Shown piece after piece: positions 14,742-16,804 of a DNA stretch of 64,000 nt. The notes under the pieces are model-generated. The model was not told the DNA's origin. It was given only the letters and a program-made list of their open reading frames with translations, and did not search any database. The DNA is taken from positions 186,001 to 250,000 of the forward strand of contig CANMWT010000001.1 in NCBI GenBank assembly GCA_947501635.1, written 5' to 3'. The number at the start of each line of letters is the position of its first letter. Positions within the stretch are counted from its first letter, which is position 1. This stretch comes from an uncultured Roseobacter sp. GTDB taxonomy: Bacteria; Pseudomonadota; Alphaproteobacteria; Rhodobacterales; Rhodobacteraceae. Both the position numbers and the translations under genes were made by a program.

Positions 14742-15560
14742 ATGCGCACTGCGTTTGCAAAACTCATTGTGCTTTGTGCGATATGCGTCGCGCAGCCGGG
14801 TGTTGCGCAGCAGAAGACGACCGGTTTGCGCGGCATGACTGCAGAGAATGATGCGCGCGTCTGGCAGGCTGTGGGCCGACTGGACGCGAAAGGCTCGGGG
14901 TTTTGCACCGGCACGCTGATTGCGCCGGAACTGGTTCTGACCGCCGCGCATTGTGTGTACGACCGCAAAAGCGATGCGTTGCTGGACCCTAAAACGCTGA
15001 CCTTTAGGGCGGGGTACCGAAATGGTGAGACGGCGGCCTCGCGTGCGGTTGTCCAGATCGAGGCGCACCCTGGCTATAATCCACGCTCTAACATCGGACC
15101 GAACAACATCCGGTATGATGTCGCCCTTCTGCGGTTGGCAAAACCTATCCCGACGCATGAGTTGGATCCCTTTGTGCTGCACCAATCCATCGTCTCCAGC
15201 GGGCCGGTCAGCGTCGTGTCTTATGGGCGTGCGCGTGAAAGCCTGCCGTCGCGGCAGGATGTGTGTCAGGTCGAACGCACGCAGGAAGACATCATGTTCA
15301 TGGACTGTGACGTGACGTTCGGATCGTCCGGATCGCCTGTTTTCAGCCACCGGAACGGGCGTGGGCAGATCGTTTCGGTGATCTCTGGGATGGCGAATAT
15401 TCGCGGCCGCAAGGTTGCGTTGGGGATGACACTGCCTGATGTGGTAGCGCAGTTGCGCCACCAGATGTGGGCGAATAAGGAAAAGCCTCTTGCCCGGGCC
15501 AAGCGCGTCTCTGTCGGTTCGGCTGGCAGTACAGGAGGCGCCAAATTCGTCAAGCCCTGA
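14742..15560 (+). CDS. Exported trypsin-like serine protease (second of tandem pair)
   Basis: This 272-residue paralogue of the preceding gene has a signal peptide (LIVLCAICVAQPGVAQ). Its triad is His70 in LTAAHC, Asp126 in RYDVALLRL and Ser196 in FGSSGSPVF, with Cys residues at equivalent places. GDSGGP is replaced by GSSGSP in this protein and GSSGAP in its neighbour, a divergent oxyanion-region sequence. Both end in a low-complexity Gly/Ser stretch and GAKFVKP. The tandem layout indicates duplication; sequence divergence is substantial, so it is not recent. Confidence 0.88.
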   Translation: MRTAFAKLIVLCAICVAQPGVAQQKTTGLRGMTAENDARVWQAVGRLDAKGSGFCTGTLIAPELVLTAAHCVYDRKSDALLDPKTLTFRAGYRNGETAASRAVVQIEAHPGYNPRSNIGPNNIRYDVALLRLAKPIPTHELDPFVLHQSIVSSGPVSVVSYGRARESLPSRQDVCQVERTQEDIMFMDCDVTFGSSGSPVFSHRNGRGQIVSVISGMANIRGRKVALGMTLPDVVAQLRHQMWANKEKPLARAKRVSVGSAGSTGGAKFVKP

Positions 15561-15564
15561 GGGT

Positions 15565-15593
15565 CTTGAACACGCGAAAATCCTACCCACATT
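15565..15593 (+). promoter_or_regulatory. Heat-shock (sigma-32 type) promoter candidate for hsp20
   Basis: CTTGAA at 15565-15570 and CCCACATT at 15586-15593 are separated by 15 bases, close to the RpoH pattern (CTTGAA, 13-17 bases, CCCCAT). It would give a leader of about 95 bases before hsp20. A TTGACA at 15592-15597 could be an alternative housekeeping -35 box. Pattern-based only. Confidence 0.4.
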
Positions 15594-15671
15594 GACAGTG
15601 TCGGAGTGCCTTGAAAGGGCTCTGGCACCTGAGAAACAGGGTACGTCCGATGTGCGGAGTGCCTGAAACCT

Positions 15672-15700
15672 TATCGCTCAATGAAGAGGATACACTGATG
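15672..15700 (+). promoter_or_regulatory. ROSE-like RNA thermometer hairpin masking the hsp20 ribosome site
   Basis: UAUC (15672-15675), a bulged G at 15676, and CUC (15677-15679) pair with GAGGAUA (15686-15692) across a six-base loop. The ribosome site AGAGGA (15685-15690) is thereby sequestered. The UCGCU in the 5' arm matches the UYGCU element of ROSE thermometers, including the characteristic bulged G opposite the ribosome site. Two more small hairpins lie upstream in the leader (15606-15628 and 15646-15658). Heating would melt the stem and allow hsp20 translation. Confidence 0.65.
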
Positions 15701-16165
15701 CGTAGTTTAGATTTTGCCCCCCTGTACCGTGCCACTGTTGGCTTTGACCAGATCGCCGACCTGATGGACCGGGTGCTGACAAACGAGGGTACACAACCTT
15801 CTTATCCCCCATACAACATCGAAAAACTGGACGATGATGCGTACCGGATCTCGATCGCGGTTGCCGGCTTTGCTGAAAGCGATCTCTCTGTTGAGGTGCG
15901 CGAGAACGCATTGATCGTTTCGGCACGCAAAGCGGATGACGATGGCGACCGCAGCTATCTGCACCGTGGTATCGCAACCCGCGCCTTTGAGCGTCGCTTC
16001 CATCTGGCGGACCACATGCAGGTGACGGGTGCAAGCCATGTGGACGGTATGTTGCATATCGAACTCGTCCGCGAGGTGCCCGAAGCGCTGAAACCTCGCC
16101 AAATATCGATTTCATCGACCAAGCAGATCGAAAAAGACGTGGTTGACACCAAAGCCGTCAACTAA
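15698..16165 (+). CDS. Small heat-shock protein (Hsp20/IbpA type)
   Basis: The 155-residue protein has the start MRSLDFAPLYRATVGFDQIAD, an alpha-crystallin domain (NIEKLDDDAYRISIAVAGFA, LSVEVRENALIVSARK, YLHRGIATRAFERRFHLADHM) and a C-terminal QISIS of the IxI class. It is an ATP-independent holdase that keeps unfolding proteins soluble in the cytoplasm. IbpA-type alphaproteobacterial class A proteins match closely. I start it at 15698 because AGAGGA lies seven bases upstream and the family N-terminus begins there. Regulation is probably dual, by the RpoH-like promoter and the ROSE-like leader hairpin. Confidence 0.95.
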   Translation: MRSLDFAPLYRATVGFDQIADLMDRVLTNEGTQPSYPPYNIEKLDDDAYRISIAVAGFAESDLSVEVRENALIVSARKADDDGDRSYLHRGIATRAFERRFHLADHMQVTGASHVDGMLHIELVREVPEALKPRQISISSTKQIEKDVVDTKAVN

Positions 16166-16185
16166 GTCACGGAACAGTCGATAGT

Positions 16186-16215
16186 GGGTGCATCCATGGG
16201 GGTGCGCCCCTTTTT
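16186..16215 (+). terminator. Probable intrinsic terminator after hsp20
   Basis: GGGTGC (16186-16191) pairs with GCGCCC (16204-16209, one G-U pair) and is followed by CTTTTT. It lies about 20 bases past the hsp20 stop and immediately before the convergent TetR gene end. Confidence 0.5.
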
Positions 16216-16216
16216 G

Positions 16217-16804
16217 TCAGGCATTCTCGACCAATCGAAGGGCCCCATCGCGAATAGCTTCAAGCGCGGGTATGCCGGCAGCACCACGTGCCAAAAGGCG
16301 CAGACCGACCAGCATCGAAAGAAGCGCCTGCGCCGTGGTGCGGGCTTCAACCGTCGCGGGGATCTGGCCCTTTGCCTGACCTTTCTCGATCATCTCGTGG
16401 AAAAAGCTTTCGATGTCGCCGAGGGATTGTCGCACCGTTTCGGCCACTTCGGGCGGTTGGTTCGGCAAGTCCTGGGCCGTGTTTATGATGAAGCAGCCCA
16501 TATTGCGGGGATCGCCCCGTGCCTCATCAATCAGACCGTCAAAAAGTGCCCGGATCGCTGCCACGGGATCGTCCCACTGTCTGAGCATCGCGATTTTGGC
16601 GGCGCGGTTTTGCTGGTCGTAGCGCGCCAAAGCACGGTCAAAAAGCGCTTTCTTTGAGCCGAAGGCATTGTAAAGGCTTCCTTTATTGATCTGCATCGCG
16701 TCGATGAGATCTGCCATGGACGTGGCCTCATAGCCTTTTTTCCAAAACACTTCGGTCGCTTTGTCGGTCGCTTTGTCGATATCGAACGTCTTTTCCCAGG
16801 GCAT
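16217..16804 (-). CDS. TetR-family transcriptional regulator
   Basis: The 195-residue protein begins MPWEKTFDIDKATDKATEVF and carries a TetR helix-turn-helix, ATSMADLIDAMQINKGSLYN AFG in residues 27-49. The C-terminal ligand domain includes the TetR_C-like GCFIINTA region. It diverges from the carboxymuconolactone-decarboxylase-family gene at 16962. The space between them holds three copies of ACCRAWYGKT, so it most likely represses both itself and that gene, with an electrophile or other small ligand as inducer (inference). The ATG at 16804 is preferred over an upstream one at 16837 on family fit. Confidence 0.9.
   Translation of the reverse strand: MPWEKTFDIDKATDKATEVFWKKGYEATSMADLIDAMQINKGSLYNAFGSKKALFDRALARYDQQNRAAKIAMLRQWDDPVAAIRALFDGLIDEARGDPRNMGCFIINTAQDLPNQPPEVAETVRQSLGDIESFFHEMIEKGQAKGQIPATVEARTTAQALLSMLVGLRLLARGAAGIPALEAIRDGALRLVENA

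Follow-up and report, generated by a model that had tools for sequence, protein, structure and literature searches.

The ROSE-like element of Pseudomonas ibpA has been tested experimentally, showing that its two-hairpin leader gives heat control and that deletion of a G in the motif represses expression (PMC3669281, available text). The role of the upstream hairpins in ROSE elements is described there as not fully understood. ROSE-like motifs, called typical, were also reported upstream of ibpA and hspD in the roseobacter Nautella R11 (PMC3230580, available text). They come from the same clade and precede the same type of gene as the leader analyzed here, a likeness that is drawn from the published description only, since the available text gives it without structure, alignment or covariation. 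Because these motifs are in print, our leader is not a new kind of element. The ROSE-like motif of roseobacters is already known; new are the clade-wide comparative support and a bulged G that is repeated within the leader. Waldminghaus 2005 may also include members of this family. A search of the open-licence literature revealed no structural or comparative account of the leader for this family.

The Rfam family RF00435, which we take to be the Bradyrhizobium ROSE1 type, resembles our leader in the first hairpin, where GCC with a bulged G faces GG in both model and leader, and in the pairing of UYGCU with the Shine-Dalgarno sequence (SD), again with a bulged G, as in the model structure. It differs in that the SD hairpin of our leader is shorter and leaves the AUG outside; in addition, a bulged G is present in hairpin II here, one that is missing from the RF00435 consensus structure. 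Likeness to the Pseudomonas ibpA element extends to U(U/C)GCU opposite the SD, a short SD hairpin, an unpaired start codon, a stable upstream hairpin and the small heat-shock protein (sHSP) gene; however, that element consists of two hairpins and was tested by experiment, whereas the leader described here is predicted from sequence to form three (PMC3669281, available text). ROSE_2 (RF01832) and ROSE_3 (RF02523) gave sub-threshold matches in relatives but none above cut-off among those scanned.

The hsp20 locus and the folds of its leader

The leader, about 100 nt long, is located upstream of hsp20 (start codon ATG at 15698) in a 64-kb window (the whole stretch of DNA analyzed) from a marine bacterium that we take to be a Roseobacter. 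Each of the 19 genus genomes, the one studied here among them, has a match to this Hsp20. The following features were assigned:

15565..15570, plus strand: CTTGAA, the -35 element of a predicted RpoH (sigma-32)-like promoter; motif in 103 of 107 leaders
15586..15592, plus strand: -10 element CCCACAT of the RpoH-like promoter; same leader-wide motif count
15600..15626, plus strand: hairpin I, bulged G15608, YGCC against GGG; from folding, 7 of 9 pairs with changes on both sides, 89.3% of cells paired, G in 95/95
15641..15662, plus strand: hairpin II, bulged G15645, YGUCC against GGAR; from folding, 5 of 7 pairs with changes on both sides, G in 90/95
15672..15692, plus strand: hairpin III, predicted to be thermosensing, UCGCUC against GAGGA, bulged G15676; from folding, motif in 107/107, 99.1% paired, G in 95/95
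15685..15690, plus strand: Shine-Dalgarno sequence AGAGGA, 7 nt before the ATG; GAGGA lies within the paired strand of hairpin III
15698..16165, plus strand: hsp20, small heat-shock protein, 155 aa (PF00011, E 1.4e-18)
16186..16209, plus strand: terminator-like hairpin after hsp20, from a consensus scan only

Immediately ahead of the hsp20 promoter are two tandem genes for trypsin-like serine proteases (PF00089; 13931-14740 and 14742-15560). In relatives, a tail AKFV at the C-terminus is found again upstream of hsp20, in 39 of 107 cases by a strict pattern. This regular expression for the C-terminus of the upstream protease, which found 3 of 19 in the genus, was too strict and was discarded as a count of synteny.

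UAUC-G-CUC (15672-15679) can pair with GAGGAUA (15686-15692) and thereby covers the SD. The pairs of the resulting hairpin III are U15672-A15692, A73-U91, U74-A90, C75-G89, C77-G88, U78-A87 and C79-G86, with G15676 bulged and AAUGAA as the loop. Folding was carried out on five stretches around the leader, and a z-score was computed for each. The minimum free energy (MFE) structure of 15600-15700 (z-score -1.74) contains hairpin III minus its outermost pair, as well as hairpins I (15600-15626) and II (15639-15664), and hairpin III is likewise found in the MFE structures of 15660-15710 (+0.52) and 15666-15700 (-1.97). It is absent from the MFE structure of 15600-15720 (-0.83), where an alternative fold is seen once 20 nt of coding sequence are included, and from that of 15560-15700 (-1.01), a stretch that includes untranscribed DNA. 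Since the predicted fold varies with the stretch supplied, single-sequence folding was rejected as proof, and because of this ambiguity 107 leaders were collected from the genus and family for comparison.

An exact direct repeat of 10 nt, CGGAGTGCCT, occurs on the 5' side of hairpin I (15602-15611) and on the 3' side of hairpin II (15655-15664); it may permit a strand-swapped fold in the source species. A second lock, in which the 5' strand of hairpin II would capture the SD, was dropped because it requires GGAGGA at the SD, a sequence present in 47 of the 107 leaders and not in this one.

Partition function calculations at 25 °C gave an unpaired fraction of 0.37 for the SD of this leader, barely below the 0.41 in shuffles. 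Across the 107 leaders the mean was 0.17 versus 0.38 in shuffled sequences, with the lower value for the leader in 92 of 107. The computed mean for the 107 leaders rises weakly, from 0.17 to 0.25, between 20 and 50 °C, with an energy model that cannot handle non-canonical pairs. For the isolated hairpin III a stability of -5.1 kcal/mol was computed at 37 °C, and of -8.9 kcal/mol once the bulged G was removed (both values are computed only).

The conserved CTTGAA and CCCANAT-like motif is presumably an RpoH-type promoter, judged by the RpoH consensus. CTTGAA, GTTGAA or CTTGAC, followed by a spacer of 13-17 and a CCCANAT-like box upstream of hairpin I, was detected in 103 of 107 leaders, and the spacer is 15 or 16 in 100 of these 103; the pattern, which was composed after the alignment had been seen, occurred in 399 of 10700 mononucleotide shuffles. 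The median distance from the end of the -10 box to the start codon is 98 nt (86-110). This conserved position points to a transcript start near 15599, so that hairpin I would stand at about the 5' end of the transcript. Such a start lies far upstream of about 15672; a start downstream of that position would be at odds with the thermometer proposed in the first-pass annotation. A scan of 15400-16300 for sigma-70-type promoters found none.

Conservation and covariation among relatives

Relatives were taken from the family of the host (Rhodobacteraceae) and, beyond it, from the class Alphaproteobacteria. The 107 leaders consist of 19 from the genus, 28 from the family search and 60 further ones chosen down the family list; they were drawn from the better-scoring matches among the 292 of 295 family genomes with a match, leaving out the weakest. 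YGCUY opposite RAGGA, at most 45 nt from the start codon, is present in all 107 leaders, and the start codon of the genes is ATG in 106 cases and TTG in one. The first-pass annotation had described a pairing of UAUC-G-CUC over the ribosome site of hsp20 with one bulged G; the sequence is as described, and the motif is shared by every leader collected.

Alignment A1 comprises 95 leaders, 12 of the 19 genus rows having been removed. A three-hairpin structure of 22 pairs was defined on it once A1 and an initial RNAalifold prediction had been inspected, and 93.8% of its cells are paired. Compensatory substitutions, which the first-pass annotation had suggested looking for in relatives, are present: 13 of the 22 pairs show changes on both sides. 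As many were reached in 1 of 500 shuffles, and the covariation score of 0.320 compares with 0.175 ± 0.006 after shuffling (0/500 as high), in a comparison where the shuffles ignore relatedness and the 95 rows do not amount to 95 independent events. Sliding the structure by 1-3 columns reduced the score to 0.056-0.150. RNAalifold on A1 recovers 19 of the 22 pairs and lacks only the upper three of hairpin II.

In hairpin I, pairing is frequently lost at the outer positions, two of which are broken in 29 and 21 of the 95 rows. Hairpin III is nearly invariant: three of its six pairs never vary and one varies on both sides; at its top pair, C-G is replaced by U-A in 8 of 95 rows. This near-invariance is expected if the strand must match the SD. 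In 42 leaders from outside the family, which were aligned to a covariance model built from A1 (termed R1), 19 of 22 pairs show changes on both sides, including four of the six pairs of hairpin III, whereby such a fitted alignment leans to the model. The positions of the bulges in hairpins I, II and III are occupied by G in 95, 90 and 95 of the 95 rows of A1 and in 41, 33 and 41 of the 42 leaders outside the family. Taken together, all three hairpins are supported by covariation; the two additional upstream hairpins seen by the first-pass annotation are real, and each carries its own bulged G. This predicted bulged G in all three hairpins is a new detail.

Reach of R1 and of the Rfam ROSE models

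In the genome studied here R1 has one strong match, which is this leader (70.9 bits, E 5.5e-21), followed by matches with E 0.33 and 1.94. Within the family, 276 of 295 genomes are matched at E<=0.001. Training rows were supplied by 90 of the 295 (lists compared by eye), none of which is among the 19 misses, so that 186 of 205 held-out genomes match. The misses comprise three genomes without an Hsp20 match, ten with matches at paralogue level only (E 1e-33 or weaker) and six at orthologue level. In a class-wide sample R1 matches 110 of 289 genomes at E<=0.1, four of them members of the family, with about 28 chance matches expected outside the family at this threshold; at E<=0.001, 90 of 285 non-family genomes are matched (counted from the match list). 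At 46 non-family loci (26 supplied by the search itself and a further 20 fetched from the weaker matches), we looked for an Hsp20 frame on the strand of the match, at any place in the fetched stretch. Such a frame was present at 42 of them, which are all 42 loci with E<=0.0011, and at none of the four with E 0.0014-0.0071.

A search with the Rfam ROSE models, proposed by the first-pass annotation, came out negative. No Rfam family, RF02523 and RF01832 included, is above cut-off in the 64-kb window, none matches 15300-15900 at E<=10, and the gathering cut-off of RF00435 (45 bits) is not reached by this leader. One of twelve genus leaders scanned scores with RF00435, at a sub-threshold 26 bits of the 45 needed. 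RF00435 is above cut-off in 2 of 295 family genomes, the genome studied here not being among them, in a run with stricter filters where weak matches may be lost. RF02523 is above cut-off in 0 of 100 family genomes and has one sub-threshold match, which falls on the hsp20 leader in G098 (E 9.6e-4). None of 40 Hsp20-linked non-family leaders found by R1 passes RF00435, RF01832 or RF02523 (run at E<=1); seven of the 40 have sub-threshold ROSE matches, among them two to ROSE_2 and two to ROSE_3. The leader has no Rfam match because nearly all of the clade escapes the ROSE models of Rfam, a gap that is likewise a new detail, and since family and non-family leaders are both affected, Rfam was rejected as the deciding test.

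The two family loci with RF00435 above cut-off, L035 (G119) and L036 (G276), are the only ones in 295 genomes, and R1 finds both of them (E 1.8e-8 and 1.7e-7, 53-kb search). The same two genomes also hold much stronger R1 matches (1.5e-14 and 1.2e-17, places not listed), so the RF00435-type ROSE may be a second one that was gained by transfer.

The features by which an element is classed as ROSE-like are found here as follows: the leader forms the 5' UTR of a gene for a small heat-shock protein, with the PF00011 gene directly downstream; UCGCU faces AGGA with a bulged G; the number of hairpins is three, within the two to four of such elements; and homology to established ROSE elements is visible in the R1 matches to the RF00435 loci and in the common layout of hairpin I. 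Judged by its sequence, the leader has defining features in common with ROSE and is measurably homologous to it, yet falls short of the numerical cut-offs of Rfam. The ROSE-like reading of the first-pass annotation is thus upheld by covariation, by the R1 matches to RF00435 loci and by the linkage to Hsp20 genes.

The pattern TCGCTY-N2-8-RAGGA-N5-10-ATG occurs eight times in the own genome and not at all in the reversed control. Two of the occurrences precede sHSP genes, namely this leader and C2:288846. The remaining six open frames of 252, 5, 10, 61, 14 and 284 aa, where R1 gives no match in three cases and weak matches in three (10.7-15.0 bits); they were rejected as thermometers on these weak or absent scores. 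By eye, the frame of 252 aa seems to lie inside a LysR-like gene, and that of 284 aa resembles a xanthine-dehydrogenase FAD subunit. The leader of the second sHSP gene (G000:C2:288846-288874; L259, L027) is shorter and has UCGCUU opposite AAGGA. R1 matches 11 of 11 loci of this paralogue fetched from genus relatives (L024-L034 range; E 8.6e-7 to 8.6e-3, 53-kb search). The own copy scores 16.0 bits, out of register at hairpin III, compared with 15.0 for an unrelated frame, and the genome-wide R1 search does not list it. This leader is possibly a two-hairpin ROSE-like element. Two further Hsp20 genes, L001 (G000:C20) and L003 (G000:C2:107320-107628), have no R1 match.

Proposed mechanism and rival explanations

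We consider it highly probable that the hsp20 leader is a ROSE-type RNA thermometer, in which RpoH-like transcription would be combined with translation that is opened by heat. The RpoH-like promoter would start transcription of hsp20 near 15599 on heat shock. The leader of the mRNA would fold into three hairpins, the third of which pairs UCGCU with the SD and leaves one G bulged, and at normal growth temperature ribosome binding would be blocked. Upon heat shock hairpin III, weakened by its bulged G, would open, and the transcript made with RpoH could be translated at once; this temperature response we infer, as the first-pass annotation did, by analogy to ROSE elements studied experimentally. 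A probable role of hairpins I and II is to maintain correct folding or stability of the RNA. All three hairpins have a weak point in common, a single bulged G in the 5' strand that faces a purine-rich strand and is separated from the loop by two or three pairs, and for this reason hairpins I and II may respond to temperature as well. That they are themselves temperature-responsive, melting in a graded manner or cooperatively with the SD hairpin instead of being passive folding aids, seems unlikely to us.

The thermometer with hairpin III as its sensor has to be weighed against readings that do not involve temperature sensing. A conserved, structured 5' UTR could stabilise the hsp20 mRNA or fix a low rate of translation, for which the strong covariation of hairpins I and II and the suggested protection of the transcript by hairpin I of the Pseudomonas ROSE (PMC3669281, available text) can be cited. 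It would, however, leave unexplained why a bulged G is kept opposite the SD in 95 of 95 leaders, as its loss would merely stabilise the hairpin, and why the strong matches are linked to Hsp20 (42/42 at E<=0.0011), and we regard it as quite improbable. A three-hairpin leader over the SD would also suit a riboswitch for a metabolite or ion, or the target of a small RNA; nothing specific to either was found. The lack of any Rfam family above cut-off in the window, the linkage of the 42 strong non-family matches examined to Hsp20 genes and the absence, by eye, of any core of conserved unpaired positions in A1 beyond the bulged Gs all speak against such a function, which we hold to be very improbable.

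Even less credible is a regulator-binding DNA site as the main function of the conserved stretch, with its pairing as RNA being incidental. In favour of this, ROSE was initially regarded as such a site (PMC4166951, available text), and part of the leader is invariant in A1. Compensatory changes and variable loop lengths, however, are predicted by RNA pairing and not by a DNA site, and therefore disfavour it.

For the ROSE-type thermometer, covariation yields a concrete consensus of three hairpins, including the bulged Gs of the upstream hairpins. With RF00435 above cut-off in two and R1 matching in 276 of the 295 genomes, this sHSP gene seems to be under ROSE-type control in nearly all of the sampled family, a feature that annotation based on Rfam would miss.
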